From the NCBI RefSeq assembly GCF_001679785.1, contig NZ_CP016286.1, positions 3,838,001-3,902,000 on the forward strand: DNA of 64,000 nt. Direction: 5' to 3'. Below the pieces are notes generated by a model. The model was not told the DNA's origin, ran no database searches, and worked only from the letters and a program-made list of their open reading frames with translations. The translations under genes and the position numbers were made by a program. This DNA comes from Rhizobium leguminosarum (GTDB lineage: Bacteria > Pseudomonadota > Alphaproteobacteria > Rhizobiales > Rhizobiaceae). Positions 30,882-49,024 of the stretch are shown here, piece by piece. How positions within the stretch are numbered: position 1 is the stretch's first letter; each line of letters starts with the position of its first letter.

Positions 30882-31028
30882 ATTCCCGTCAGACGCGGTT
30901 AACCTTTTTGGCGAAGATTGGCCTTCGCAAGCGGTCGCTTAAACCGTGCCTTAACGCCGGACATATCTGGTCGTTGCTGTGTTAAGAGCCCGCATCAATA
31001 CGGGCCGGCGTGCAGCGATAGGTGGAAA

Positions 31029-32207
31029 ATGTCGATTATCGAGGCAGATAGGGTACGCGAAAGCCCGCAGTTGGGAACGGGCCCCCTGATCGTCCATGTC
31101 GTGCGCCAGTTCCTGCCCAACCGCGGCGGATTGGAAGACGTCGTCGCCAATCTCGCCCGCCAGACCGTGCGCCGCGGTTACCGCGTGCGCGTCGTCACGC
31201 TGGATTCGCTCTTCACCGCGCCTGAAGACAAGCTGCCGCTTCGCGAAGATATCGACGGCATCGAGGTGGTTCGCATTCCCTGGTTCGGCACCAGCCGCTA
31301 TCCTCTGGCACCGCAGGTTTTCCGCCATCTCGCCGATGCCGATCTCGTGCATGTCCATGCCATCGACTTCTTCTTCGACGTGCTCGCCTGGGGCCGGCTG
31401 CTGCACGGCAAGCCGATGATCGTCACCACCCATGGCGGCTTCTTCCACACGCGGAAATACGCGACGATTAAGAAGATCTGGTTCCGGACATTGACCCGTG
31501 CTTCGGCGATGGCCTACCGCCGCGTCGTCTGCTGCAGCGCCTCCGACCTCAAGCAGTTTTCCGAGATCGTGCCCGACAGCCTCCTGATCGAAAACGGCGC
31601 CGATATCGGCAAATTCGCCGACACCGCTTCGCGCCGGGCAAAGCGCCGCATCGTCACGATCGGCCGGTTCTCGGTGAACAAGCGCATCGACCATCTGCTC
31701 GATGCGATGGCCGCGCTGAAGACCCGCGACCCGGAATGGCAACTCGACATCGTCGGCGCCGAATCCGACCTGGACCGGGCGGATGTCGAAGGCGCAATCG
31801 AAAGCCGCCATCTTTCCGGCCGCGTCACCCTGCATGTGTCGCCCGACAACGACACCATCCGACGCGTCATCGCAGAAGCCTCGATTTTCGCCTCCGCCTC
31901 GGAATATGAAGGGTTTGGCCTGGTGGCGCTGGAGGCGATGAGCGCCGGTCTCCTGCCGGTGCTGAACGCCAACGATGCCTTTGCGACGCTTGCCGCCCGG
32001 CATCCCGTTCTCATGCTTGCCGATTTCACCAATCCTGAGACCGCCGCCACGGCGCTCGAAACGGCCTATGAACACCTTTGGCGCCAACCGGACACCGTTC
32101 GAACAGAGCTTCTCGACGCCGCCCGCGGCTATTCCTGGGATATCGTCGCCGGACGTTACATCGATCTCTACAGGTCGCTTGATGTCGTCGCCGCGAAAAG
32201 CATCTGA
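31029..32207 (+). CDS. Family 4 glycosyltransferase
   Basis: About 392 residues from MSIIEADRVRESPQLG; upstream codons back to 30918 are in frame but non-homologous. It is a GT-B fold transferase: N-terminal acceptor domain with VVRQFLPNRGGLEDVVANLA, C-terminal donor domain with IVTIGRFSVNKRIDHLLDAM and the nucleotide-sugar EX7E motif ASEYEGFGLVALEAMSAG. It is convergent with the flippase-hydrolase gene and probably belongs to the same glycan pathway. Sugar specificity cannot be deduced. Confidence 0.88.
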   Translation: MSIIEADRVRESPQLGTGPLIVHVVRQFLPNRGGLEDVVANLARQTVRRGYRVRVVTLDSLFTAPEDKLPLREDIDGIEVVRIPWFGTSRYPLAPQVFRHLADADLVHVHAIDFFFDVLAWGRLLHGKPMIVTTHGGFFHTRKYATIKKIWFRTLTRASAMAYRRVVCCSASDLKQFSEIVPDSLLIENGADIGKFADTASRRAKRRIVTIGRFSVNKRIDHLLDAMAALKTRDPEWQLDIVGAESDLDRADVEGAIESRHLSGRVTLHVSPDNDTIRRVIAEASIFASASEYEGFGLVALEAMSAGLLPVLNANDAFATLAARHPVLMLADFTNPETAATALETAYEHLWRQPDTVRTELLDAARGYSWDIVAGRYIDLYRSLDVVAAKSI

Positions 32208-32276: not shown

Positions 32277-35200
32277 TTATGCTTTCGCCAGACGGATGAT
32301 CTCGTCGAGCACGAATTTACGCGATTGCGGCGGCGTCAGATTGTGATCGGCATCCGGCAGCATCAGCAGCCGCACGTTCGGATAGCGGGAAAGCCTGGCG
32401 CCGCGCGGCCCGAAGTGGAAATAGACATGGTCGAGCCCGACATCGGCCACGCTGTAGATCAGCGTCAGCGGTACCTTACGCTTGCCGAACAGCGCGAATG
32501 AGTGCCGGACTTCGCGGGCGATATAGCGCCGGCCGGGAAGCAGCTCGAGCAGCGGCGCGATCCACGGCGACAGCCGGCGGCCGGCGGCTATGACGATGTT
32601 CCGCAGCGCCGCAACGACGTCGACCTGGCCGCGCAGCAGCCGCTTCAGCGTGTCGAGTCGCGCCAGGCGCTGGCTGTAATCATCAAGGCTACGCGGGACC
32701 GAGACGACATGCTCCCGGCGCACCGGCACGTCGGGATCCCAGTAATAGACGAAGGGATTGATCGACACGACTGCCTTCAGGCGTTCGTCGGCGACGCCGG
32801 CGCGGAAGGCGACATAGCCGCCGCTGCATCGGCCGGCGACCATGACGGGACCGGCGACGACGTTTTCGAGTAGATCGAGCGCGGCGACAGCATCTGCGGT
32901 CTGCGTGTCCGAATAAAGCACCTGTTCCGGCGCATCCGGCCGCGGCGGGCTGTCGCCGACATTGGCGGAATCAAAGCGCAGCGAAACGAACCCTTGGCGG
33001 GCGAGCTCGCGCGCCATATCAACCGTCGTCCGTCCCCAGCCGGCATGCCGGTCATAGGCCGTCGACAGGAAGAGCACGGCATTGCCCTTGATCTCGCCGA
33101 GCGGCCGGCTGACGACGCCGACCAGATGGTTATGGCTTCCGAAACGCACCGGCGTTTCCTCAAAACCTTCGCCGGCAAGCGGCAGGTTGTCGATCGCTGA
33201 CTGCGAATGGGCGGCGGATGTTTCCGTCGTCGTCGCCTCCAGCCACGCCGTCAGCAGCGCCACGACAGCCATCGGCGTCTTGGCAAACAGCGGATTGGTG
33301 GCGAGCTCGTCATAACCTTCGAAAGCCTTCTGCTCGACATCGGCGCCAAGCGCCTTCAGCGCATCGGCAAAACCTGTATCCTCGGCCTTGGCAGGACGTT
33401 CGAGGATCAGGTAGCGGGAGGTTGCGAGCCCCTGCGGCGAGGTGATGTTGAGCTTGCCGAGCTCGGCAGCGATCTCTTCGGGCATGACGAGCCCGGCGAT
33501 CTGCACCTTGGCGGTCTGGACATGCTCCTTGCCGAGGCCGAGATCGGCATCGATGATCTTGGACCACATGTTGAGTTCGCGAAGATAGGCTCTGCCGCTC
33601 AGCACCGGCGCCAGCATGACGAGGCTGTCGACGCCGTCGATCGAGGAACCGACGCGATGGGCAAGGGTCGCGCCGAGGCCTTGGGCGATGAGGATGACGC
33701 GGTCGCAGCCGCTCAGTGATTTCAGCTTGTCGGCGGCCGCACGGATCGAACCTTCCCAGGTTTCCAGCCTCGCCGGCAGTGCGTCGAAATCGAGCGCATC
33801 GCCGGTGCCGCGATAGTCGAAGCGCAGGCTCGCCACGCCGATATCCGAGAAATGCTCGGCCGCGACGCGGAAGAATTTACGGCTGCACATCTCCTCGAAA
33901 CCCCAGGGGCTGACGAAGAGCACCGCGGCCGAACGTTTCTTGGCGAGAGGATTTTCAGGCATGAACAGCCCGATCGTGCCGTCGAAGACGACAGGCAGGG
34001 CGGCACTCCGTCCCGCACCTTCGGCCGGTTCGAGTGAGAATTCGCCAGGCGCGACCTTGGCGCGATCGGGATCGCCTGGAAGCCGCGGCGCGATGAAATT
34101 GATCGCGTGGCGGACCGGTCGCCGCAGCAGGGACGGCATCTTCTCGAGAATGGAACGCATGACTTCGACATCCTCGCCCGGCACGGCGCGCAGCACGCGG
34201 AGTGCTGCGAAATAGCAGAATGCGCCTGCGATGATCGCGCCGACCAATCCGGCCGGACCCTGGACGAATTCCAGCACTGAAGTCGCTCCGCAAGCGCAGA
34301 GGACGGAGGCGAGCGTCACCTTCGTCAGGCTTGCGTAGAGACCCGAAAGCTGGGATCCGAATCCTGTCTGTCTGATCATCATCACCGACATCGCAACGAA
34401 TACGAGGATGCGCACGAGTGCGGCACCCTCGGCTGCAAGCCTAGGTATGATCAGTAAACAACCCGCTACCATCAGAAGGCCACCTATCACACTGATGTTC
34501 AGGCGGGAGCGGGCCCTGTCCATAGACAGCAGGTAGAGGCTGAGGATCTGCATGAAGGTATAGGCGGGAGCAACGAGCGCAAGCAGCGCCACCACCGTGC
34601 CGCTGCGGCGAAACGCTTCACCGAACACCACGAGCACCAGTTCGCTGGAGATCGCGGCAAGCCCGAGGCTCAGCGGCAGCACGATATAGGCCATGCTGCG
34701 GGTGACGGCGGTAAAGACCTCGACCGGCAACGTCGAATCGTCGCTGTTATGCCGCCGCTCGGAATAATAGGGCAGCAAGCTGCCGGTCATCTGGATCGGC
34801 AGTTGCAGCGCGATATTCGCGATCGACAGGCCGACGGCATAATAGCCGACCATCTCCACCGACCAGAACTGCTGCAGGAAGAGCAGCTCGAGCCGGTTGA
34901 GGAAAATGGAATCGATGATGAACTGGATCGACAGGATGACGGAGGAGGAGGCGAGATATTTCAGCGAGACTCCGCACCAGTCGCGCCGCGCCAGAAGGAT
35001 CGGCAGCGTGGCGAAAAACAGCACCAGTTGGCCGAGCGCATAACCGACGAGAACGCCTTCGACGCCGTAGAAAACGGCGCCGACGGCAACGCCGGCAAGC
35101 TGCACGATCGAGACGGCGACCGTCAGCTTAAAGAAGGCGCCGAGCTTCTTTTCGCCGATCAGGTAGAATTTGACGAAGGAACCGATCGCCTGGACGAAGA

Positions 35201-35588
35201 ACAGCACGCCCGTGACCAGAGCGACGGAGGGCGCGGTGTCGGCCCAGTGCATCTTTTCGGAGGTGAGGAAGAACAGCGCGTAGAGCGCCAGCAGCACGAC
35301 GGTCGAGAACATCATGAAGCTGACGAGGATGGCGGCAAAACCCCGTCGGCGGCGCGCGTCGAAGCCTTCCGCCGAAAGTTGCGGCAAGGTCTTCAGCAGC
35401 GTGATGCTGGAGCCGAGCTCGGCGATCGAGGCGCCGGTCACCACCAGCCAGAGCGAAAAGGCGACGATGCCGTTGGCTTCCGGCCCGAGCAGCCGCGCGG
35501 TTATGATCGAGGAAACGAAGCCCGTCAGAAGCAGCAGCATGCCTGCCGCGCCATTCATCACCGAGTTTGCGATAATACCCTTCGACAT
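32277..35588 (-). CDS. Polysaccharide flippase fused to two alpha/beta-hydrolase domains
   Basis: A 1103-residue protein. Residues 1 to about 475 form a MOP-superfamily flippase (Wzx/MurJ-like) with about 12-14 hydrophobic segments, starting GAAGMLLLLTGFVSSIITARLLGPEANG. After a linker, a first alpha/beta-hydrolase (about 550-790) has the elbow LIAQGLGATLA with Gly where the nucleophile should be, so it looks inactive. A second (about 800-1103) has the elbow VAGRCSGGYVAF (Cys at the nucleophile position, Ser next), an Asp in YSVADVGLD and a His in PDADHNLTPP. These resemble the exosortase-associated hydrolase pair. I know of no described protein with this layout. Confidence 0.85.
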   Translation of the reverse strand: MSKGIIANSVMNGAAGMLLLLTGFVSSIITARLLGPEANGIVAFSLWLVVTGASIAELGSSITLLKTLPQLSAEGFDARRRRGFAAILVSFMMFSTVVLLALYALFFLTSEKMHWADTAPSVALVTGVLFFVQAIGSFVKFYLIGEKKLGAFFKLTVAVSIVQLAGVAVGAVFYGVEGVLVGYALGQLVLFFATLPILLARRDWCGVSLKYLASSSVILSIQFIIDSIFLNRLELLFLQQFWSVEMVGYYAVGLSIANIALQLPIQMTGSLLPYYSERRHNSDDSTLPVEVFTAVTRSMAYIVLPLSLGLAAISSELVLVVFGEAFRRSGTVVALLALVAPAYTFMQILSLYLLSMDRARSRLNISVIGGLLMVAGCLLIIPRLAAEGAALVRILVFVAMSVMMIRQTGFGSQLSGLYASLTKVTLASVLCACGATSVLEFVQGPAGLVGAIIAGAFCYFAALRVLRAVPGEDVEVMRSILEKMPSLLRRPVRHAINFIAPRLPGDPDRAKVAPGEFSLEPAEGAGRSAALPVVFDGTIGLFMPENPLAKKRSAAVLFVSPWGFEEMCSRKFFRVAAEHFSDIGVASLRFDYRGTGDALDFDALPARLETWEGSIRAAADKLKSLSGCDRVILIAQGLGATLAHRVGSSIDGVDSLVMLAPVLSGRAYLRELNMWSKIIDADLGLGKEHVQTAKVQIAGLVMPEEIAAELGKLNITSPQGLATSRYLILERPAKAEDTGFADALKALGADVEQKAFEGYDELATNPLFAKTPMAVVALLTAWLEATTTETSAAHSQSAIDNLPLAGEGFEETPVRFGSHNHLVGVVSRPLGEIKGNAVLFLSTAYDRHAGWGRTTVDMARELARQGFVSLRFDSANVGDSPPRPDAPEQVLYSDTQTADAVAALDLLENVVAGPVMVAGRCSGGYVAFRAGVADERLKAVVSINPFVYYWDPDVPVRREHVVSVPRSLDDYSQRLARLDTLKRLLRGQVDVVAALRNIVIAAGRRLSPWIAPLLELLPGRRYIAREVRHSFALFGKRKVPLTLIYSVADVGLDHVYFHFGPRGARLSRYPNVRLLMLPDADHNLTPPQSRKFVLDEIIRLAKA

Positions 35589-35772: not shown

Positions 35773-36981
35773 TTAGCTGGCCTGCATCGCCGCCAGCGTC
35801 TGAAGCGCCTTCTCGTAGCTGTTTTCAGCGAGGTAACGCAGCAGGAACTCCCGCGCTTTCTCGGCCTTCTCCCGTGCACGCTCGGGTGTGCGGAAGATGT
35901 CTCGCAGGTGCGCGGCCGCCGCCTCGGATGAGGGGTCGGCCCAGACCGCGCCTTCGAGCCCCACAAATTCGGGATGGGTATCGACCACCGGAATGAGGGG
36001 AGAGGCAACCAGCCAGCTATTGTCGGGATCGCAGAAATCCACCGTGCCCGACCAGGCCGTGGAAATGACGGGTGTACGCTGTATGATCGCCTCGGCCACC
36101 GTCAGTCCGAAACCCTCGGAACGATGCAGCGAAAGATAGGCGTCTGAACAGCGGATGAGGCCGTTGATATCGGAGTCCGACATCCTGTCGGTGACGATCC
36201 TGATCCGGGTATTGCCCGCGACCGAGGCGACCAATTCGCGCAGGCCCTTATCCTTGTTGATATCGCCGCTGGCCTTCATCAACAGGAAGGCGCTGGGGCA
36301 TTCGGCGGCAAATATCCTGAAGGCCTCGATGACGGCCTGCGGATTCTTTCGGTTGATCGAGGAGCCGGCGCTGAAGATGAAGCTGACGAGAAAGGCGTCT
36401 TCCTCGATGCCGAATTTTTGGCGCATGCCTTCCGTCGCCGGCTTCTCGGTGACAGGATGCGGAACGACGATGACCGGTGCCGCAGTGAGGGGTGCAATCG
36501 CCCGCCTGGTGAATTCCGACGGCACGAAGACGGCATTCATGTAGTGCATCGCATTGCGCCACTCGGCCGGCACGACTTCGAGCTCCCAGGCGAAATAGCC
36601 GATGTTGAAGGCGCGGGTGAAATCCGCAACGCCCTTCTTCAGGATGGCGCGCGGCAGCATCGGCGGATTGAGATGCCAGATCCGGCTTCCCGCGGGTTCG
36701 GTGGAGAGATGCGACGGCATCCATCCGGCGAAGGAATTCTCGTCAGGATGCGTGCTGACGTCGGAGAGCGAAATCGCCCGCCCAGCCTCCGAAAGAGCGC
36801 CGGCGCAGAGCCTTGCCGATTCGCCGACGCCGACCGCCATCGAGAGATAGCCGACGATTTCCACCGGCCTGCGCGGATTGAAGGCAAGACGCGACCGCGG
36901 GATTAGCCGCTGCAGGACATGGGCGCGCAGAAGGCGGTATATCGTTCTCAAATCACGGTCTTTCCCATGGATCGGCATCAT
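35773..36981 (-). CDS. Family 4 glycosyltransferase
   Basis: A 402-residue GT-B transferase. The N-terminal domain has EIVGYLSMAVGVGESARLCA, the donor domain has FIFSAGSSINRKNPQAVIEAF and the EX7E motif RSEGFGLTVAEAIIQ. Such enzymes often extend mannose or other hexose chains on lipid carriers. It starts 14 bp after the glycoside hydrolase gene and is separated from the flippase fusion by 184 bp containing a repeat, so it is probably the last gene of the carrier-protein operon. Confidence 0.88.
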   Translation of the reverse strand: MMPIHGKDRDLRTIYRLLRAHVLQRLIPRSRLAFNPRRPVEIVGYLSMAVGVGESARLCAGALSEAGRAISLSDVSTHPDENSFAGWMPSHLSTEPAGSRIWHLNPPMLPRAILKKGVADFTRAFNIGYFAWELEVVPAEWRNAMHYMNAVFVPSEFTRRAIAPLTAAPVIVVPHPVTEKPATEGMRQKFGIEEDAFLVSFIFSAGSSINRKNPQAVIEAFRIFAAECPSAFLLMKASGDINKDKGLRELVASVAGNTRIRIVTDRMSDSDINGLIRCSDAYLSLHRSEGFGLTVAEAIIQRTPVISTAWSGTVDFCDPDNSWLVASPLIPVVDTHPEFVGLEGAVWADPSSEAAAAHLRDIFRTPERAREKAEKAREFLLRYLAENSYEKALQTLAAMQAS

Positions 36982-36995
36982 TCATCGCATGGGCG

Positions 36996-39476
36996 TCAGC
37001 CCTCGATTGCGACGCGATGCGAACTGCCTAGACTTCTGATCTCGCCCGCAGGCGGAATATCGCTTTCCACGCCGGACAGCGCGTGGAGCGTCACGCGCCG
37101 CATCGCGCCGGGGGCAACGTGGAACCAGTCGTCGTCGGCCCGATAGCCCTCGACGTCGATATGCACAGATTGCGCCAGCCGGTCGGTCCTGAGGTCAACG
37201 AACCAGTCGTCGCCGTCTCTGGTGAATGATGCTTCGATACCTGCATCATGCAGCGCCTTCCCCCGTCCGCACGGGAAGTGGAAGCTCTCGGCGAGAATGG
37301 TGCCGTCCGCCAGCGAGCGCAGGCGCGCCACACTGGCATCATGCGCCGGCGGCCCGAAACGGAAGGCATAGGTCGTGTCGAAGAAGGCGCCGAACAGCGC
37401 GGTGCAGGCAAGGCGCTCCGTGTCCCTTGCCGCCAGCTTGAAGGCCCTGCTGCCGCTGACGACCTGCTGTTTTCCGCCGCGCAGACAGACGACATCGAGC
37501 TCGACATCGAGTGCTGCATCCGTCTCGTTGACGACATGCACGTCGAGACCGTTCGTTCCCTCGTCGGTGAAGGCCACTTGCACTGGCCGGAATGCACGGC
37601 GCATCGCATACCAAACGGGCTTCGGCTCTCCGGTGGAGTCGACCACTCCCCAGCCGGGGCCGGGCAGCAGATCCTGCAGCGTCCAGACGAGCGCGCCGTT
37701 GCAGGCGGAGCCCTTGCGCCGCCATTCGGCAAAAGTTTCCTCGATCACCTCGCCGGTAACGGCGCGGGAGAAATCGAGATAGCGTTCCGGATCTTCGCGG
37801 CGCAGCTCAGCCGGATCGAAACCGTAGAGAAGCTGTAGGTAGAAGTCGCGAACATCCTCGAAATCCCACGATGCGCTCCGGTCGCGGGGCACGCGGGCCT
37901 TCCATAGCGGGCTGTGGACGGCGGGCACATCGAGATGACGCTGCAGCGTCCTTTGCTGCGGCACATGCGCGAAGGCGAGGCTTTCGGAGGCAAAACGCAC
38001 ATCGGCGCGGCGCGCATCGGCAATCGGCCGCATATAGGCGCCGACGCCGTAATAATGCGCGATACCGGCATTGGGCGAAAAGGGCATCGCTCCGCCATAT
38101 GGTGAGTTCGGGACATAGGGCACGTCGGGACGCATTCGCGCGACGACCGCCGGGATGATTTCATCGGTGACCGGCCCGCTCCAGAATTCCGCCGGCAGGC
38201 CGAGCATTGCCGCCTGCTGATGGATTTCGCTGCCGCCGCAAAGCACGGCCAGCGAAGGCGACGCCTGCACGCCGTGCAGGAATTCTTCGACCTCCGCATG
38301 CACGTGGCCGAGAAAAGCCTTGTCGTTGCGCGGATAATCGAAGTTGGCGAACATGAAGTCCTGCCAGACGAGCAGACCGAGTTCGTCGCAGAGCGCGAAG
38401 AAATCAGGCGTTTCGTAGGCCATGGTGCCGCCGATGCGGATCATGTTCATTCCGGCTGCAGCGGCAAGCCGCAGGAACGGCTCATAATCCGCCCGCCCGC
38501 CCGGCAATCGCGCGATATCGGCCGTCGTCCACACCGCGCCGCGGCAGAATATCCGCTCGCCGTTGACGAGGAGCGCGAAGTCGTCGCCATCGGCACCACG
38601 GTCGACGTCGACACGTCGAAAGCCGCTCCTGCCGAGCGGATATTCCACGCCGTCGGAAACCAGCGTCAGCGCGTAGAGACGCGGAGCGCCATGCGTATGC
38701 GGCCACCAGGCCTCGATGTCGGAAAGCTTGAGGATAGCCGAGTAATGACTGTCGCCGACCTTTTCGAAGGGCTGCTCCATCCCGCCGCAGCGCAGCAGCA
38801 TTGCCGGATCCTCCGCATTGCTATGCAGGGACACGCTGAGACGGCCGACGCCACTCTCCTCCAATACGGCGCGGATGGAGACATTGTCGATCGAGACGGG
38901 ATGACGCTGCACCATCGAAATCGGCCGCCATGGCCCGACGGCATGGATATCGGGGCACCAGCCCGGCATATGGCCGAGTAGCGTCGTGCGGAAATTCTTC
39001 AAGCCTGGCGGCGTGATCATTTGCGGCCGCCAGCGCGCGCGCGGGCCCGGCTCCGACAGGCGGGGGCCGAGCGCCCGGAAGCACAGTGCCAGCTCATCGC
39101 CGCCCGAAAGCGTCACCGGAATCTCGTGCGCCGTGAACATGCTCTCGGAAAACAGGATTTCCTGGCCGTTCAGGAAGACGTGGCAGAGTGTCGCCAGCCC
39201 TGCGAAACGCAGGATCGCGTCGCCGGGCTCGGCATCGAAAAGCCGGCAGAGATACCAGGCATCCCGCGTGTTCAGCGGCTCGGGATTTTCCCGGTCGAAG
39301 AGCCCGGCTTTTTCGAGCGCGGCGGCGACGGTGCCTGGAACGGGTGCTGGAATGAACTGTGCCGACAACGGGATGTCGTGCGGCACGGCGCAGGCGCCCG
39401 GCTCCGTCAGGATCAGGTTCCAGCCTTCGGAAAGTAGACTTTCCGCGGCACCGATGCTCGCCAAACGCCCCCGCAT
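36996..39476 (-). CDS. Glycoside hydrolase family 2 protein (beta-mannosidase-like)
   Basis: About 826 residues from MRGRLASIGAAESLL at 39476, preceded by GGAGAT 7 nt upstream; the upstream ATG at 39509 would overlap the DUF1839 gene. The layout is that of GH2: a jelly-roll domain (about 20-190), an immunoglobulin-like domain, then a TIM barrel with acid/base Glu in LCGGSEIHQQ and nucleophile candidate in FASESLAFAH, and C-terminal sandwich domains. No signal peptide is seen, so it acts on a cytoplasmic glycan or glycoside, possibly trimming the product of the neighbouring glycosyltransferases. Confidence 0.85.
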   Translation of the reverse strand: MRGRLASIGAAESLLSEGWNLILTEPGACAVPHDIPLSAQFIPAPVPGTVAAALEKAGLFDRENPEPLNTRDAWYLCRLFDAEPGDAILRFAGLATLCHVFLNGQEILFSESMFTAHEIPVTLSGGDELALCFRALGPRLSEPGPRARWRPQMITPPGLKNFRTTLLGHMPGWCPDIHAVGPWRPISMVQRHPVSIDNVSIRAVLEESGVGRLSVSLHSNAEDPAMLLRCGGMEQPFEKVGDSHYSAILKLSDIEAWWPHTHGAPRLYALTLVSDGVEYPLGRSGFRRVDVDRGADGDDFALLVNGERIFCRGAVWTTADIARLPGGRADYEPFLRLAAAAGMNMIRIGGTMAYETPDFFALCDELGLLVWQDFMFANFDYPRNDKAFLGHVHAEVEEFLHGVQASPSLAVLCGGSEIHQQAAMLGLPAEFWSGPVTDEIIPAVVARMRPDVPYVPNSPYGGAMPFSPNAGIAHYYGVGAYMRPIADARRADVRFASESLAFAHVPQQRTLQRHLDVPAVHSPLWKARVPRDRSASWDFEDVRDFYLQLLYGFDPAELRREDPERYLDFSRAVTGEVIEETFAEWRRKGSACNGALVWTLQDLLPGPGWGVVDSTGEPKPVWYAMRRAFRPVQVAFTDEGTNGLDVHVVNETDAALDVELDVVCLRGGKQQVVSGSRAFKLAARDTERLACTALFGAFFDTTYAFRFGPPAHDASVARLRSLADGTILAESFHFPCGRGKALHDAGIEASFTRDGDDWFVDLRTDRLAQSVHIDVEGYRADDDWFHVAPGAMRRVTLHALSGVESDIPPAGEIRSLGSSHRVAIEG

Positions 39477-39492
39477 GGTCAGATCTCCGGCC

Positions 39493-40467
39493 TCAGATTC
39501 GCCCCGCAAGCGACGCCATCATGGAATCCCATGCATCGGCGGCCGGATCAAGTGCTGCCTGCAACGGCTCGAACTTCTTGCGGGTGACGGCGCGGGCAAG
39601 CTGGAACTGCACCGATTTCGCCACCTCCGAAATGCGCCCGGCATGCTCGGCGGCAGCCGCGAATTCACCAGGGGAAAGCCAGGTGAGGTAATCGGCCGCC
39701 AGCTCGAAATTGGCGCCCACCTGGCGAAGCGTGTTGAAGGCGTATTTGTGGAAGAAGCCGAACGGCCGTTCCGCCACCGCTTCGACCTGTTGCGGAAAGA
39801 CGCTTGCAAAGGCGTGGATCGGGTTTTCGCGGGGACACCGGGCAAAATGAAAACCGGCAAGCCGCCGCGCGGTCGCGCGCAGATGCGCTTCGTCTGCCGG
39901 TTTTTCCGGGAATCGTGCAAATTCCGTATAGGGCAGGAACGGCGGGTCGTTTTCCGTCAGATGCCGCTGGAACAGCCCGTCGAAATCCTCGCCTTCGAGA
40001 CGAAAATAGCCGGCATTGTGGAAATAATCGACGCGCTTGGCCGCGACGTCCAGACGGTTGATCGCAACCGTCGTCTTGCCGTGCTCCTGCCGGTAGGCGG
40101 TGCCGCGCGTATCCGGCATGTAGAAGGAATCCATTTCGATCAGGCAAAGGCGGCCCCGCGCGATCTGAACCTCGACATGGCGTTCGACACGGTCGTAGAT
40201 GGCAAGCTCGGTCGCACGAATGCCGTAGAGCGCCTCGAGATCCTCTAGCGGCACTTTGAAGAAAGTGAACTGGTCGCCCTCGAAATCCTGCGTCAGGGTA
40301 AAACCCAGCATCGCCTCCGGCGCAACGCCTGATGTCGCCAGAACCTCGATCCAGAGATCGACATAACAATTGGTTTCCGGCCAGGCGCGCTCGCCGGAAT
40401 GCAGCGCATGCGCCCGGTAGGTTTCGGGGTCGATTCCCGAAAATACCCCCGAAAATACCGACGTCAT
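39493..40467 (-). CDS. DUF1839 protein, putative BtrH-like acyltransferase
   Basis: About 324 residues from MTSVFSGVFSGIDPETYRAH at 40467, 8 nt after the ligase stop; the longer frame to 40623 lies inside the ligase gene. The family (DUF1839) has no established function. Seen in the N-terminal half: Cys34 in ETNCYVDLWIEVL, Asp113 in CLIEMDSFYMPDT and His129 in YRQEHGKTTVAI. This order and spacing resemble BtrH_N/papain-like acyltransferases, which move aminoacyl groups from a carrier protein to an acceptor (inference). The C-terminal half is helical and unrecognised. Its place just after the amino acid:carrier protein ligase supports that role. Confidence 0.75.
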   Translation of the reverse strand: MTSVFSGVFSGIDPETYRAHALHSGERAWPETNCYVDLWIEVLATSGVAPEAMLGFTLTQDFEGDQFTFFKVPLEDLEALYGIRATELAIYDRVERHVEVQIARGRLCLIEMDSFYMPDTRGTAYRQEHGKTTVAINRLDVAAKRVDYFHNAGYFRLEGEDFDGLFQRHLTENDPPFLPYTEFARFPEKPADEAHLRATARRLAGFHFARCPRENPIHAFASVFPQQVEAVAERPFGFFHKYAFNTLRQVGANFELAADYLTWLSPGEFAAAAEHAGRISEVAKSVQFQLARAVTRKKFEPLQAALDPAADAWDSMMASLAGRI

Positions 40468-40475
40468 CGATTTGC

Positions 40476-41393
40476 TCAGCCCCACAGCGCTTTCCGTACG
40501 CTGGCCGGCCATTGCTTCACATCGAGTCCGTGATGATGGAAGAGGGCAAGGGCGATGCGCTCCAGTCCGAAGCCGACGCAAGCGGTGTGCGCGACACTGC
40601 CGTCTTCGAGATTGAGACCCCATTTCGTGCCGAAGGCATCCTGATGGTAGTTGAAGCTCATGCAGGCGGTCGGGTTGGCAGCCGAGGTGATCGGGATCAG
40701 CAGCTCGAACTTCAGGTTCTGGTCGCGCTGATTATTGGCGAGCATCTTGCCGGCGCGGCCGAAGAACGGATCATTGGCGACGTCGATCGTCACCTCGAGG
40801 CCGACGGCCTTCATCATCTCGACGCCGCGATCCATCCAGCGCTGGCGGAAATCGGTGACGTGCAGCTCGGTGCCCATGCAGACATATTCACGCATGCGGA
40901 ACAATTGCTGGCGGGCAGGGTCTTTCGACGGCTCATGGCGGAAGCAATAGGATTGCAGGTCGAAGAGGCCGCCCGTCGCCGGCAGGTTGCCGCGCTTGGC
41001 GATCGTCGGATAGAGCGGATAGCAGGCAGCCGGCGTCAGCACGATGTCGGTCGCCTCCTGTCCCTTGGTCCAGTCTTCGCCGACTTCCATGCATTGCAGC
41101 AGGCTGACATGATCGAGCTCGCTGCCGCAGAAGCTGTGCACCGTGCCGGCGAGCTGCGGAAAGCTCTTCATGTAGCCGCTCTTTTCGAAGAAGGCGCGGT
41201 TCATGCCGGGCGGAAAGCGCATGGCTTCGGCACCATCGGCGCCGCCGAACGTATCGATCAGGCGCTCGAAGGCAGCGATCACGTCTTCGAACTGGCCGCT
41301 GCGGCCGTAGAGCCCGTCGATGCCGGTATCGATCAGCAGACCGGATTCGAAAAGCCGGTCCAAAAACGAGGTCTGCATATCCATGACTGTCAC
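40476..41393 (-). CDS. Amino acid:[carrier protein] ligase (class II aminoacyl-tRNA synthetase homologue)
   Basis: A 305-residue homologue of the catalytic core of atypical seryl-tRNA synthetases, lacking the tRNA-binding arm. Characterised relatives (Bradyrhizobium Bll0957 and an Agrobacterium protein) adenylate glycine and load it on the phosphopantetheine arm of a small carrier protein. The zinc ligands known for Bll0957 (Cys131, Glu176, Cys279) correspond here to Cys124 ([10 protein letters not shown]), Glu169 ([11 protein letters not shown]) and Cys272 ([13 protein letters not shown]), all with the same offset of 7. Motif 3 ([12 protein letters not shown]) is intact. It overlaps the acyl-CoA dehydrogenase gene by 4 bp. 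Confidence 0.9.
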
Positions 41394-42571
41394 CCCAGTA
41401 GGCTAGTGTCCTGCTTATGGACAAGAAGCATGCTCGACGTGTTGCCGAGGATGCGGTCATTCGAAATCATGAGCTGTGCGGAATGCGCGTCGCGCAGATG
41501 GCGTCCGAGGCTGAAGGGCGTGCCGTTCTTGTAGCCCATGATGCCGCAGATCAGCATGGCATGGTTGACGATCTCCAGGATCGTCTCGGACGAAGCGATC
41601 TTGACGTTGTTCATCGCCACCGCAAATCCCATCGAAGACAGCCTGTCGGCATCGGCCTTGGCATCCTCATAGGCCTTGAGGCCGGCGACCACGTTGGATT
41701 TCACCATCTGCAGCAGGTTCGAAACCTCGGCGAGGCGCAGCGCTCCCGGCGGCTGGGCATCCGGCGCCTTGCGGGCTGCGGCACGCACGAAAGCCTGGGC
41801 GCGCACAACGGCGTCGACGGCGATGCCGTACCAGACGCCGCTCCACAAGAGGTGCGAGGAAGCAAGCATGGATTGCGCCGCGATCTCCGCGAAAGGCTTC
41901 GGCAGGATCTGGCAAGCTGGCGCTTCGCCCTTGAACAGGAAGCCGTCGGAGCAGGTGCCGCGCATGCCGAGCGTATTCCAGACATGCGTTTTATCGAGCG
42001 TGTACTGGTCCTTGAGGAAGGCCGTCAGCACCTGATCGGAGGAAGCCGCCTGCGCGTGGGCACGCGAGGTGATAAGGATGGCGTCGGCGTGCGAGCCATA
42101 GGAAATGACAGTCGCATCCTTTTCGAGGCGGCACGTGTCGCCATCGACCTCGACCGCGCAGATGCTGTTGCGCAGGTTTCCGCCGATACCGCCTTCGGTG
42201 GTGGCGGATGCGATCAGCAGCTGCTCGGCGGCGATGCGGCGCATGAAGCTGCGATGCCATTCGCTGTCGGCGCCGTGTTCAACGAGGCTCGACAGCTTGA
42301 TATGGTGCATGGCGAAGACCATGGCGCTCGCGGCGCAGGCCTGGCCGAGCATCGAGCACAATTCGGCGATCTCGGTGATCGAGGCGGATTCGCCGCCGAG
42401 ATGGCGCGGCACCTGGATGCCGAGCAGCCCTTCGGCCTTCATCGCATCGACGGCTTCCCGGGGGAAGCGGGCCTCGGCATCAACGGTATCCGCGTGTTTC
42501 GCCGCAATTTCGGCGACGCGGGCCACCCTTGTGACAAGACCGTCCTGCATGATCTTGACAGGGAAATTCAT
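41390..42571 (-). CDS. Acyl-CoA dehydrogenase homologue of the carrier-protein operon
   Basis: A 393-residue flavoprotein with the acyl-CoA dehydrogenase fold: N-terminal helical domain ([20 protein letters not shown]), beta domain ([14 protein letters not shown]) and C-terminal helices ([30 protein letters not shown]). Where ACADs usually have the catalytic Glu (IYEG) after the RDA motif, this protein reads [10 protein letters not shown], so ordinary alpha,beta-dehydrogenation is doubtful. It may act on an aminoacyl-carrier protein as an oxidase or monooxygenase (inference). It overlaps the carrier-protein gene by 1 bp and the ligase by 4 bp. Confidence 0.85.
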
Positions 42572-42822
42572 CAGGCGACCTTCCGGCCGTCCCGGATGAG
42601 ATCGACGGTCCTGGCGATCGCCGAGATGCTCGCGAAGGATTTGCGGTTCAGGAGATTGTCGGGAAATTCGATGTCGAAGGCCTCTTCGAGGCCAAGCATC
42701 AACTGCACAGAAGCAAAGGACGTCAAACCTGCCGCATAAAGATCGGCGTCGTCGGCGACCTGGTCGATCGACCCAGGAAGCTTGCCGAATTTGGCTACGA
42801 GGTCGCGGATTGCCTTATTCAT
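42571..42822 (-). CDS. Acyl/aminoacyl carrier protein
   Basis: An 83-residue PP-binding protein. The phosphopantetheine-attachment Ser is Ser35 in YAAGLTSFASVQLMLGLEEA, with the usual helix II pattern and acidic surface (EEAFDIEFPDNLL). It is the first gene of the operon with a GGAG ribosome site, and the following gene starts within its stop codon. By analogy with the Bll0957 system it is the amino acid acceptor of the ligase two genes downstream. Confidence 0.92.
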   Translation of the reverse strand: MNKAIRDLVAKFGKLPGSIDQVADDADLYAAGLTSFASVQLMLGLEEAFDIEFPDNLLNRKSFASISAIARTVDLIRDGRKVA

Positions 42823-43085: not shown

Positions 43086-44138
43086 TCAATCGGCCGGCGG
43101 ATAGGAATGCTCGCCGCCGCGATAATCGGTGACGGAATAACATCCGTCGCCTGTCGCCCGCATCGCGCTTCCGCTGATGACGGCCTTGCCGTGACCGCCT
43201 GGGATATCGAGGATGTAGGCCGGCTGGCAGAGACCGGAAATCCGGCCGCGCAGCGCCGCGACGATCTCCTGCCCTTCCTCGATCGTCACCCTGAAATGAC
43301 TGGTGCCGGGCGCCAGATCCGGATGATGGAGGTAATAGGGTTTGACGCGGATTTCGACGAAGGCCTTCATCAGCTTCGCCAGCACGTCGGCATCGTCATT
43401 GACACCCTTGAGCAGCACCGACTGGCTGACCATGGCGATGCCGGCATCGACGAGGCGGCCGCAGGCGGCCCGCGCTTCCGGCGTCAGTTCGCGCGGATGG
43501 TTGGCGTGCAGCGCCACATACACCGTCTTGCCGCTCGCCTTCAGCGCGGCGATCAGCGCCGCATCGATCTTCTCGGGATCGACGACCGGAACACGCGTGT
43601 GGAACCTGATGATCTTCACATGCGCGATACCGGCAAGCGCCTCCATGATCTCGCCGAGACGGCGCGGCGAAAGCACCAACGGATCGCCGCCGGTGAGGAT
43701 GACCTCCCAGATCTCCTCGTGCCTGCGGATATAATCGAAAGCGGCCTGCATCGCCGCCGCATCGAGCGTGCCGAGGCCCTGCGGCCCTACCATTTCGCGC
43801 CGGAAGCAGAAGCGGCAATAGACCGGGCAGACGTGCACGGCCTTGAGCAAGACACGATCGGGATAGCGGTGAACGATACCTTCGACGCGGCTGTGGGCAT
43901 GATCGCCGATCGGATCGGCGCGTTCTTCCGGGGCGATCGTGAGTTCGGCCGCATCGGGCACGAATTGCCGAGCGATCGGATCATCGGGATCGGCTCGATC
44001 AATGAGCTTACTGATCGCAGGCGTCAGCGCAACCGCGTAACGCGCCGCCACCTCCTCGAGCGCTACGCGATCGGCAGGCGCGACCAGCCCCGCCTTCACA
44101 AGATCGTCGACGCTCTTGATCGGTTTGACGACATTCAT
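43086..44138 (-). CDS. epmB: EF-P beta-lysine 2,3-aminomutase EpmB (radical SAM)
   Basis: A 350-residue KamA-like enzyme. The radical SAM cluster motif CxxxCxxC is in HVCPVYCRFCFRREMVG, and PLP and lysine-binding segments follow (GGDPLVLS; HANHPRELTPE). It lacks the long C-terminal part of clostridial lysine 2,3-aminomutase, as EpmB does. It makes (R)-beta-lysine from lysine for attachment to elongation factor P. It overlaps epmA by 4 bp, and efp is divergent just beyond. Confidence 0.93.
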   Translation of the reverse strand: MNVVKPIKSVDDLVKAGLVAPADRVALEEVAARYAVALTPAISKLIDRADPDDPIARQFVPDAAELTIAPEERADPIGDHAHSRVEGIVHRYPDRVLLKAVHVCPVYCRFCFRREMVGPQGLGTLDAAAMQAAFDYIRRHEEIWEVILTGGDPLVLSPRRLGEIMEALAGIAHVKIIRFHTRVPVVDPEKIDAALIAALKASGKTVYVALHANHPRELTPEARAACGRLVDAGIAMVSQSVLLKGVNDDADVLAKLMKAFVEIRVKPYYLHHPDLAPGTSHFRVTIEEGQEIVAALRGRISGLCQPAYILDIPGGHGKAVISGSAMRATGDGCYSVTDYRGGEHSYPPAD

Positions 44139-45196
44139 CTTCCAACCTCCGCCACCGGCGCCCAGAGCACCTGGTCGATGCGCGATGCTCCCGTCGCGAG
44201 CATCACCAGCCGGTCGAAGCCGAGCGCGATACCGCTTGCCTCAGGCATCAGCGACAGCGCGGCGAGAAAATCCTCGTCGATCGGATAGGTCTCGCCATAG
44301 ACCCGCGCCTTCTCGGCCATTTCGATCTCGAACCGTCGCCGCTGTTCGGCAGCGTCGGTGAGTTCGCCGAAGCCGTTGGCAAGCTCGACGCCGCAGGCAT
44401 AGAGCTCGAAACGTTCGGCAACTCTGGGGTCGCGCGCCGAGGGACGGGCAAGGGCTGCCTCCGAGATCGGATATTCGTCGAGGATGGTGATGCGGCCGAA
44501 ACCGAGACGCGGCTCGATCTTTTCGACCAGCACCCGGCTGAAGAGATCGGCCCAGCCGTCGTCTTCGGCAACTCGCACACCGACGCGCCTGAGTTCGGCC
44601 GCTAGATGGTCGCGGTCGGTCGAACCGTCGGCGGCGACCGAGGCGAGAAGATCGACGCCGGCATGACGCTCGAACGCTTCGGCAATGCTGATCCGCTCCG
44701 GCCCGGCGAAGGGATCGCTCTCGCCGCCGCGATAGGCGAGCTTCCCGGTCTTCACCGTCTCAGTCGCCAGCGCCAGGATCCGCACGCAATCCATCATCAG
44801 GCTCTCGTAGCCTTCGCCGGCCCGATACCATTCGAGCATGGTGAACTCGGGATGGTGCAGCGGCCCGCGCTCACGGTTGCGATAGACATGCGCAAAACAC
44901 GAGATGCGCTCCTCGCCCGCCGCCAGCAGCTTCTTGCAGGCAAATTCCGGCGAGGTGTGCAGGTAGAACGGCGCCTTTTGCCCATCCGTCGTCAGTGCTT
45001 CCGTCGCGAAGGCATGCAGATGCGCCTCGTTGCCGGGGGAGACCTGCAGCACCGCCGTATCCACCTCGATGAAATCCTCGCGCGCGAAAAACCCGCGCAA
45101 CGCCGCCTGGATCGCATTGCGTCCGATCAGGAACCGACGGCGGTCGGCATGCACGGACGGGGTCCACCAGGGGGACGCTTTCGCCGAAGAGTTCAT
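44135..45196 (-). CDS. epmA: EF-P--(R)-beta-lysine ligase EpmA (GenX/PoxA)
   Basis: A 353-residue truncated class II lysyl-tRNA synthetase without the anticodon-binding domain. Motif 2 is in YRNRERGPLHHPEFTMLEWY and motif 3 in SGIALGFDRLVMLATGA. It attaches (R)-beta-lysine to Lys34 of EF-P. It is co-transcribed with epmB by a 4-bp overlap and divergent from efp with 148 bp between them, so the whole modification system is in one place. Confidence 0.95.
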   Translation of the reverse strand: MNSSAKASPWWTPSVHADRRRFLIGRNAIQAALRGFFAREDFIEVDTAVLQVSPGNEAHLHAFATEALTTDGQKAPFYLHTSPEFACKKLLAAGEERISCFAHVYRNRERGPLHHPEFTMLEWYRAGEGYESLMMDCVRILALATETVKTGKLAYRGGESDPFAGPERISIAEAFERHAGVDLLASVAADGSTDRDHLAAELRRVGVRVAEDDGWADLFSRVLVEKIEPRLGFGRITILDEYPISEAALARPSARDPRVAERFELYACGVELANGFGELTDAAEQRRRFEIEMAEKARVYGETYPIDEDFLAALSLMPEASGIALGFDRLVMLATGASRIDQVLWAPVAEVGR

Positions 45197-45344
45197 TCCA
45201 AGCTTTCTTCGCCGGAGAGGCCGGTATGGGGGGTGGCTATTTCCCGGATTTTAGGTTAGTTGCGCCCCAAAGAAAAACATTTGCGTCTTCGGAGCGTCTC
45301 GACAGTCATCTACGACGCCGAAAGCCGAGTTACAAGGAAGTCTT

Positions 45345-45914
45345 ATGGTCAAGGTCATCGCCTCTTCGGTCCGCAAGGGCAACGTTCTCGATGTCGACGG
45401 CAAGCTCTATGTCGTTCTCACCGCCCAGAACTTTCATCCGGGCAAGGGCACGCCGGTCACCCAGGTCGACATGCGCCGCATCGTCGACGGCGTGAAGGTT
45501 TCCGAGCGCTGGCGCACCACCGAACAGGTCGAGCGCGCCTTCGTCGAGGACGTGAACCATCAATTCCTCTACGAGGACGGCGAAGGCTTTCACTTCATGA
45601 ACCCTCAAAACTACGATCAGGTCGTCGTCGATGTCGACACGATGGGGGACGACAAGGCTTATCTGCAGGAAGGCATGACCTGCGTTCTATCAATGCATGA
45701 AGGCATTGCGCTTGCGATCCAGATGCCGCGCCACGTCACGCTCGAAATCATGGAGACGGAACCGGTCGTCAAGGGCCAGACGGCTTCGTCTTCCTACAAG
45801 CCGGCCATACTGTCGAACGGCGTGCGCGCCATGGTGCCGCCGCACATCAATGCCGGCACCCGCGTCGTCATCGCGACGGAAGACAATTCCTACGTCGAAC
45901 GCGCCAAGGACTGA
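45345..45914 (+). CDS. efp: Elongation factor P
   Basis: A 189-residue three-domain translation factor that rescues ribosomes stalled at polyproline. The modifiable lysine is Lys34 at the tip of domain I ([10 protein letters not shown]), the target of EpmA/EpmB encoded next door. The C-terminal OB domain ends [14 protein letters not shown]. An AAGGAAG ribosome site precedes the ATG. Confidence 0.98.
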
Positions 45915-46841: not shown

Positions 46842-47993
46842 TCAGGTCGCTTCGCCGCTGAGCCAGGTGGCGGTGACGGCAAGCGCATCGGTGAGATGCA
46901 CGAGATCGGCACGCGCGCCCGGCGAGAGATGGCCGCGATCGCCAAGCCTGAGGAACCGCGCGGGATAAAGGGTCGCCATGCGCAAGGCCTCGGCGAGCGT
47001 CAGGTCGAGATAGGTGACGCCGTAACGGATCGTCGAGATCATGTCGACATCGGAACCGGCCAGCGTGCCGTCGGACAGCACCAGCTTGGAGCAGAAGCCG
47101 CCCCTTTCGCGCCGGACGATGCGCCCGTTCAGCGTGAACGAGTCCTTTTCCGACCCGACGAGCGACATCGCGTCTGTGACGAAGAACAGTTTGCCTTCGC
47201 CGCGTTTGGCGCGCAGCGCCGTGCGCAGGGCCTTCGGATCGACATGATGGCCGTCGGCGATAATACCGCACCAGGTCGAAGGATGATCGATCGCCGCGCC
47301 GACGAGACCGGGCGCCCGGTGTCCCAACTGGCTCATGGCATTGAAGAGATGCGTGACGCCCCGCGCGCCGGCATCGAAACGTTCTTCCGCCGCCTCGCTC
47401 GAACAATCGGAATGGCCGATGCTGACGGTGACGCCGGCTTCCGCAAGCTCGCGCACCTGGGCAACCGTCACCTGCTCGGCGGCCATGGTGACGAGCAGCG
47501 TGCCGATCGCCTCGCGGGCCCGGATTAAGGCCTTGACATCGCGGTCCTCCACCGGCCGCATCAGTTCGGCGAGATGCGCGCCCTTGCGCGCAGGCGCCAG
47601 ATGCGGGCCTTCGAGATGCAGGCCGGCAACGCCGCGGTTCATTTTCACTGCCTGCTTGGCCGCCTCGATGGCGGCAATGGAGGCCTCTGATGAATCGGTG
47701 ATCAGCGTCGGCAGCAACGACGTCGTGCCATAGGGTCGGTGCCCGCCGGCGATAATGTCCATCGAGGCAACGGAAGGCTCGTCGTTCAGCATCCACCCGG
47801 CGCCGCCATTGACCTGCGCATCGATGAAGCCGGCCGACAGAACACCGCCGGCAAGCGTCACCAGCTCGCCGTCCGGCAGATCATTTCTTGCCATGATCGC
47901 TTCGACGCGGCCGCCGGCAACGATGAGGGCTTTGTCGTCATGGAAGCGCTCACCGTCGAAGATGCGGGCGCCGAGGAAGATCTTGCGTCCCAT
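46842..47993 (-). CDS. nagA: N-acetylglucosamine-6-phosphate deacetylase
   Basis: A 383-residue amidohydrolase that converts GlcNAc-6-P to GlcN-6-P and acetate. Metal and substrate residues are seen in [30 protein letters not shown] and [18 protein letters not shown], and the catalytic Asp in [12 protein letters not shown]. It overlaps the upstream SIS gene by one base, and the small SIS gene follows after 17 bp. Confidence 0.94.
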
Positions 47994-49024
47994 CAGACCG
48001 TCTCCGTCACCTTGAGCAGGTTTGCCGGCTTGTCGGGATCGAAGCCCTTGCGGCGCGTCACCGACTCGATCAGCCGGTAATAGACAAGCAGCGATACCAG
48101 CGGATCGACGAGGCCGTTGCCCGTCGTCGGCACGCGCAGATGGACGCCGGAAAGCGGCTGCGTCGAGAAACCGACGGTGGTGGCGCCGAGTTTCTGCAGG
48201 CGTTCCAGCGCCTGCACATTGTTGGCGAAGGCCGCATCGTCGGGCGCAAAGGCGACGATCGGGAAGCCCGGCTGCACCAGGCGCATCGGACCATGCATCA
48301 ATTCCGCCAGCGAGAAAGCCTCGGCATGCAGGCCGGAGGTCTCCTTGGCCTTCAACGCCGCTTCGAGCGCGATCGCGAAAGCCGGGCCGCGGCCGGCCGT
48401 ATAAAGCGAGGTCGCGTTGAAGAGCACGTCCTCGGCTGCCGCCGTATCGATCCCGGCGGTCGCCGACAACGCCTCCGGCAGCTTGCCGAGCGCGGCCTGC
48501 AGGTCGGGCGCACCGCCGATCGCAGCCGTCACCCCGGAAAGGGCTGCGACCGAGGCGATGAAGGATTTTGTCGCCGCGACACTCTTTTCAGCACCGGCAT
48601 TGAGACCGAGAACAATATCGGCCTGCTTCGCAAGCGGGCTGTCGGTGACGTTGACGACGGCGATCGTCGTTGCTCCGCCCTTCTTCGCCGCATCCTGCAG
48701 CGCGACGATGTCGGGGCTGGCACCCGACTGCGAGACGGTGAAATGGACACCGCCCTTCAGATGCAGCGCCGCACCGTAGACGGAAGCGATCGACGGGCCG
48801 ACCGAGGCGACCGGAACGCCGCAGGTGATCTCGAAGAGATATTTGAAGAAGGTGGCGGCGTGGTCCGAGGAGCCGCGCGCCGCCGTCGTCACCACGCTCG
48901 GGCGAGCGGACGAAAACAGCCGGGCGATCTCGGCAAAGACCGGTTTTTCCTTTTCGAGCAGCGTGGCGACCACCTCTGGCGATTGGCCGGCTTCCTGCAG
49001 CATCAGTGACTGGTTGTCATTCAT
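47993..49024 (-). CDS. SIS-type glucosamine-6-phosphate deaminase / isomerase (NagB-II or AgaS-like)
   Basis: A 343-residue protein with two tandem SIS domains (TTAARGSSDHAATFFKYLFE and LYTAGRGPAFAIALEAALKAKE), resembling the isomerase half of GlmS without the glutaminase. In operons with nagA such proteins act as the alternative GlcN-6-P deaminase NagB-II. It overlaps the GntR gene by 4 bp and nagA by 1 bp. A deglycase role is the main alternative. Confidence 0.88.
   Translation of the reverse strand: MNDNQSLMLQEAGQSPEVVATLLEKEKPVFAEIARLFSSARPSVVTTAARGSSDHAATFFKYLFEITCGVPVASVGPSIASVYGAALHLKGGVHFTVSQSGASPDIVALQDAAKKGGATTIAVVNVTDSPLAKQADIVLGLNAGAEKSVAATKSFIASVAALSGVTAAIGGAPDLQAALGKLPEALSATAGIDTAAAEDVLFNATSLYTAGRGPAFAIALEAALKAKETSGLHAEAFSLAELMHGPMRLVQPGFPIVAFAPDDAAFANNVQALERLQKLGATTVGFSTQPLSGVHLRVPTTGNGLVDPLVSLLVYYRLIESVTRRKGFDPDKPANLLKVTETV

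Follow-up and report, generated by a model that had tools for sequence, protein, structure and literature searches.

What becomes of an amino acid activated on a carrier protein when the activating genes lie beside genes for glycan assembly? This question is raised by six genes in one minus-strand block (35773-42822) of a 64,000-nt stretch of Rhizobium leguminosarum (GCF_001679785.1, NZ_CP016286.1, positions 3,838,001-3,902,000, forward strand), hereafter the window. A preliminary description of this DNA had reported a compact operon with overlaps of 1 and 4 bp and gaps of 8-16 bp, had assigned six protein families, and had proposed that the amino acid passes to a sugar, glycolipid or polysaccharide precursor. 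The coordinates agree with this layout and gene order, and all six family calls lie above curated cut-offs:

42571..42822, minus strand: carrier protein (CP), 83 aa; PP-binding (PF00550) at 34.0 bits, above cut-off, and NF005480 at 120.6 against 72
41390..42571, minus strand: flavoprotein of the acyl-CoA dehydrogenase (ACAD) fold, overlapping the CP gene by 1 bp; Pfam Acyl-CoA_dh N and 1, above cut-offs
40476..41393, minus strand: amino acid:carrier-protein (aa:CP) ligase, like class II seryl-tRNA synthetase (SerRS), overlapping the ACAD gene by 4 bp; NF005479
39493..40467, minus strand: DUF1839 protein, 324 aa if it starts at ATG, after a gap of 8 bp from the ligase gene; PF08893
36996..39476 if it starts at ATG, minus strand: beta-mannosidase-like GH2 protein, after a gap of 16 bp from DUF1839; Glyco_hydro_2_N2
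35773..36981, minus strand: GT4 glycosyltransferase, after a gap of 14 bp from GH2; Glycos_transf_1, above cut-off

On balance, we favor a thiotemplate route in which a (modified) amino acid would be joined to an amine on a building block of a glycan, whatever the final product. The earlier proposal lacked a transferase, which the CcbD-like fold of DUF1839 supplies. The AlphaFold2 model of the window's DUF1839 protein (PF08893, 449.6 bits against a cut-off of 22.5; pLDDT 91.4, pTM 0.90) matches the fold of CcbD, CtaG and AziU3 over its full length, including the C-terminal helical part. Cys34, at the start of the putative first catalytic helix of the model (34-45), is found in 47/47 aligned DUF1839 proteins and in 27 of the 28 in the loci set; Thr132 and Thr133 are kept in all 47, His150 in 46 and His129 in 45. 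CcbD and CtaG form amides, and other amines are reported as acceptors for CcbD. From the model, the DUF1839 protein is a strong candidate for a carrier-protein-dependent transferase with Cys34 as its nucleophile. PMC10318531 treats DUF1839 as a papain-like family with a Cys, reads its triad as Cys-Thr/Ser-His and guesses at an acyl-CoA-dependent action on glycans; our reading differs in the full-length match and in having a carrier protein, not CoA, as the donor. Among open-licence PMC papers, a single one names DUF1839, and a full-length CcbD-type match of the family was not found in print there. Identity to the lincosamide condensing enzymes CcbD and LmbD is about 11-12%, with no sequence match, and the adenylation protein LmbC/CcbC does the loading in that pathway (PMC4351081), whereas here it would fall to a SerRS-like ligase.

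The ligase and DUF1839 were surveyed across the phylum (299 genomes) and the order (249 genomes), with ligases accepted at E<=0.001 and called strong above the NF005479 cut-off. DUF1839 was found in 12 and 36 genomes, respectively, and the ligase in 37 (21 strong) and 52 (48 strong). Every DUF1839 genome encodes the ligase (12/12 and 36/36; 42/42 distinct genomes over both surveys), and in all 42 DUF1839 lies just downstream, separated from it by 32-455 bp on the same strand. The co-occurrence has P = 3e-31 in the order and 2e-12 in the phylum, by statistics that ignore relatedness. One genome (G484) with DUF1839 split over two frames was counted as present and not mended. For 28 of the 42 genomes, the neighborhoods of DUF1839 loci, 29 in all, were read (loci and genomes bear the working numbers L and G). 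The full set of CP, ACAD, ligase and GH2 occurs in 28/29, the sole exception being L079, an additional copy in G255 that stands next to a Wzc-type kinase, while a tandem alpha/beta hydrolase occurs in 18/29 and the operon's first GT4 in 3/29. The named loci, which are the best 80 among 518 confirmed ones and come mostly from Rhizobiaceae (one, L111, is truncated at the end of its contig, and another, L085, is only part of a copy), hold the CP in 78, ACAD in 79, the ligase in 80, GH2 in 80, the tandem hydrolase in 59, Wzx in 45, the first GT4 in 25 and the second GT4 in 44. The operon is not a chance arrangement, since other genera and families show the same gene order. Of the six families expected to co-occur, five do: the CP, the ACAD-fold flavoprotein, the aa:CP ligase, DUF1839 and GH2 form a real and conserved core, whereas the GT4, restricted to R. 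leguminosarum/etli-like loci, is accessory and lies outside it. Two apparent fusions were rejected, one of DUF1839 with GH2 (long GH2 frames in L160 and L171), since the coordinates, judged by hand, put both in different frames, and one of ACAD with the ligase (long ligase frames in L055, L057 and L058), which is out of frame.

The ligase of the window (NF005479, 521.9 bits, cut-off 357) matches solved ligase-1 entries (4h2w, 2.4e-99; 3mey, which is Bll0957, 3.4e-94) and has no tRNA-binding domain. Its PAAC, RMREY and HTAC segments align with 3mey and retain the residues that we take to form the zinc site of Bll0957. Ser35 of the CP, the expected phosphopantetheine site, is kept in 28/28 aligned proteins. 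Published orthologues of the ligase select Gly or Ala. They load the amino acid onto a carrier protein, and a 2022 review (PMC9437257) still listed the role of the resulting aminoacyl-carrier proteins as unknown. We predict with near certainty that the ligase loads an amino acid onto the CP.

Ligases also occur apart from DUF1839: of the 213 order genomes that lack DUF1839, an above-cut-off ligase was found in 12 and a weak one in 4. At 13 strong-ligase loci without DUF1839, ACAD is present in 13, the CP in 9 (E<=1e-6), a Wzx-like gene in 2 and a GT4-like match in 1; GH2 and the tandem hydrolase were each found in 0/13, so a link to glycans does not hold for the whole ligase family. In the ligase tree, the 28 DUF1839-linked ligases fall on one side of one branch (98/94), and the 13 DUF1839-free ligases are likewise grouped, weakly (69/73). 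The two kinds of locus together with the tree suggest that the flavoprotein's carrier-bound step is the older partner and that DUF1839 and GH2 arrived with one branch. At eleven weak ligase loci, the ligase is the only panel gene; three of these loci adjoin small proteins matching or nearly matching PP-binding. At L077 (9170-11464), a weak ligase lies between an 87-aa protein with no Pfam match and an NAD_binding_4 reductase-like protein, which might reduce an aminoacyl thioester. At the DUF1839-free L066 and L067, the ligase adjoins a PLP enzyme of Cys/Met metabolism and homoserine O-succinyltransferase-like genes (Pfam reading in L067 only).

The ACAD-fold flavoprotein is present in 28/28 loci with DUF1839 and ligase and in 13/13 ligase loci without DUF1839. 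None of the 41 aligned proteins has a Glu in the two regions (columns 234-252 and 360-382) where we presume the catalytic base of acyl-CoA dehydrogenases to lie, and 6/41 have one at column 233; with no Glu there, this homolog does not qualify as an acyl-CoA dehydrogenase proper. A fold search with its model (pLDDT 77) gave oxygenases and dehydrogenases tied as nearest structures. We regard it as a candidate modifier of the carrier-bound aminoacyl group.

The GH2 protein is nearest to solved beta-mannosidases (5n6u, 2.6e-49; 2vjx aligned). With its domain and two catalytic glutamates, Glu428 and Glu509 (numbered from the TTG start at 39509), which align with GH2 motifs and are kept in 28/28, it passes as a glycosidase; hydropathy gave no hydrophobic segment. 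Two further genes lie beyond the operon:

32277..35588, minus strand: fusion of a Wzx-like flippase (N-terminal ~500 aa) with an alpha/beta hydrolase tandem, 184 bp beyond the GT4
30918..32207, plus strand: second GT4, accessory, convergent with the flippase fusion; Pfam

The further GT4 flanks the block, as in the preliminary description, and faces the fusion. As a correction to that description, the flippase fusion consists of the Wzx-like half and two alpha/beta-hydrolase domains (32277-34050), which are separate from the flippase elsewhere. In 15/15 aligned tandems (of 18 found), the second domain keeps Cys, Asp and His and the first is without a nucleophile. The tandems of the window, L163, L058 and L172 have a hydr2-like domain followed by a hydr1-like one, resembling exosortase-A-associated hydrolases 1/2 (TIGR03100, TIGR03101), but all four fall below both cut-offs (for the window, 70.8 and 70.8 bits against 168.45 and 202.75, so it is not a member), and the nucleophile-free first domain also sets them apart. 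In several families the operon has polysaccharide genes as neighbors: flippases of the Wzx type (L163, L168), Bac_transf sugar-phosphate transferases (L172, L161, L054), GH5 (L168, L167), Wzc and Poly_export (L052, L079), and ManC with PMM (L166). Unrelated genes also stand beside it (L162, L169, L173).

In the favored route, the ligase would adenylate a small amino acid, Gly or Ala, and load it onto the phosphopantetheine of the CP, a step that rests on orthologue biochemistry and on the family membership tested here. The flavoprotein would then oxidize the aminoacyl group on the carrier. In the cytoplasm, the papain-fold DUF1839 protein, shaped like CcbD, CtaG and AziU3, would take the acyl group onto Cys34 and pass it to the amine of a sugar intermediate as an amide, as fold and conservation suggest. 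GH2 would trim or free a manno-configured precursor, and the product would be brought into a surface glycan by glycosyltransferases, by a Wzx flippase or other genes of assembly and, often, by the tandem hydrolase; for this and the oxidation, the argument comes from gene linkage. The acceptor is probably a sugar or glycan intermediate, and an amide is, with slightly less assurance, the predicted bond. A fuller scheme is tentative and less likely: the SerRS-derived ligase, the CP and a base-less ACAD-fold oxygenase would make an oxidized aminoacyl thioester, DUF1839 would transfer it to the amine of a manno-type precursor, and a Cys-type tandem hydrolase related to the exosortase-A pair would move or edit the group.

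Several observations weigh against this route. A shared fold is by itself no proof of function, and a DUF1839 sequence profile run against the PDB matched no CcbD-type chain (best E 0.22, calsequestrin). BtrH_N (PF14399) was matched in 2/47 DUF1839 proteins, at best E 0.092 and none significantly. The L054 copy of G255 has Arg in place of Cys34, and the second copy in that genome, L079, keeps the Cys. The tandem hydrolase is absent from 11/29 DUF1839 loci, and 21/29 had no Wzx match within the fetched flanks. The gene panel for reading these 29 loci was partly built from the same loci. DegT-type sugar aminotransferases are a usual source of amino sugars. None (PF01041) was found beside the operon among the matches listed, bar one some 10 kb away from the second copy on contig C5 described below. 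Four of the 28 genomes (G191, G308, G489, G507) gave weak and partial DegT-type matches only, which means that an amino sugar made by DegT cannot serve as acceptor in every genome. Among the above-cut-off ligase genomes of the order survey, 12/48 are without DUF1839, Bradyrhizobium-type included. In open-licence PMC papers we found no experiment on a product or mutant. The conservation of the ligase with glycan genes, on which the earlier proposal depended, holds where DUF1839 is present (42/42, with GH2 in 28/29 and the recurring Wzx, Bac_transf, Wzc/export and ManC-PMM neighbors), so the proposal came through its own refutation test. Transfer to a glycan precursor gains from the conserved linkage and the transferase fold and loses from the lineage-specific GT4 and the lack of GH2 in the 13 DUF1839-free loci.

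Those 13 loci, in which ligase, CP and ACAD do without DUF1839 and GH2, indicate that the carrier chemistry needs no glycan genes, and AziU3 and CtaG come from small-molecule pathways. Both points fit an aminoacyl-CP that feeds a free signaling or metal-binding metabolite, the glycan genes being merely adjacent; we consider this unlikely given GH2 in nearly all DUF1839 loci and the polysaccharide genes beside the operon in several families. Somewhat less likely still is transfer to a hydroxyl as an ester, like D-alanine in teichoic acids, or transfer by the Cys-type tandem hydrolase and not by DUF1839. The CP weakly resembles DltC (28 bits, cut-off 68), and the Cys-Asp-His set is invariant in the aligned tandems, which occur in 18/29 loci; however, the hydrolase is missing where DUF1839 is not, DUF1839 standing beside the ligase in 42/42 genomes and in all 29 loci by definition, and the fold neighbors CcbD and CtaG are amide-forming. 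A protein or lipid amine, such as that of a lipoprotein or aminolipid, would suit the broader amine use described for CcbD and the lack of an obligate amino-sugar gene beside the operon among the matches listed, but the obligate GH2 and recurring sugar genes make such an acceptor quite improbable. Non-ribosomal peptide synthesis, brought to mind by a carrier protein with an amino acid ligase and by the wording of a 2010 title cited in PMC2922099, is hardly credible, as Pfam gave no condensation, adenylation or thioesterase domain of that type in eight scanned proteins.

The preferred route, amide transfer to a glycan precursor, has parallels. The butirosin side-chain pathway also has a carrier protein, BtrI, and an amino acid ligase, BtrJ. 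It further resembles our system in the flavin enzyme BtrO (PMC2922099) and in BtrH, a papain-like acyltransferase to an aminoglycoside (PMC10318531), but BtrH_N matches just 2/47 DUF1839 proteins, at E 0.09. Another parallel is a system predicted in a note added in proof to PMC2922099 (2010), which names Atu2574. It comprises an ACP, a redox enzyme predicted to monooxygenate, a SerRS paralogue, a conserved ORF and a glycosidase, and carries the same guess, namely that the conserved ORF makes an amide with an amino sugar of the cell surface; its redox enzyme is assigned a Rossmann fold, unlike here, and the ORF is given without a fold. From gene order, we infer that Atu2574 is a DUF1839 protein. 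Our analysis adds the CcbD-like fold for this ORF, a counted five-gene core and the split from DUF1839-free ligases. The idea in the preliminary description is thus reasonable and was, in essence, already printed in 2010 (PMC2922099); the fold result makes it mechanistically concrete.

In its own genome, the window's DUF1839 is one of three copies. A second operon on contig C5 is nearly whole with a truncated GT4 (97.1% DNA identity over 6,013 bases), and a fragment shares 95.8% over 1,945 bases; both extra copies (L004 and L005, on C5) have nearby an identical 1,484-base stretch that carries a DDE_3 transposase. Among relatives, R. ruizarguesonis gave the best DUF1839 match (94% identical), and R. 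johnstonii 3841 gives 98%. Directly upstream of the operon (43086-45914) are genes for a KamA-like aminomutase (TIGR03822), EpmA (genX) and EF-P, a trio found in 58/80 named loci, which puts two aminoacyl-tRNA-synthetase-like modifiers side by side in Rhizobium. Amino-sugar catabolism genes, nagA and a NagB-II-like gene (46842-49024), lie 4-6 kb upstream. A promoter consensus scan gave 1 promoter-like site against 2.6 in shuffles, and no promoter is claimed.

If the fuller scheme is true, antibiotic-style chemistry would act on ordinary surface glycans, the result would be aminoacyl-decorated surface polysaccharides of a new class, and such a CcbD-like transferase would be present in common rhizobia, methylobacteria, azospirilla and burkholderia-like genomes. 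The predicted decoration would lie on the surface glycans of root-nodule and other plant-associated bacteria, and no search for one was found in open-licence PMC papers. The fold of DUF1839 would give the long-puzzling aa:CP ligase family a job that can be tested in vitro with four proteins.
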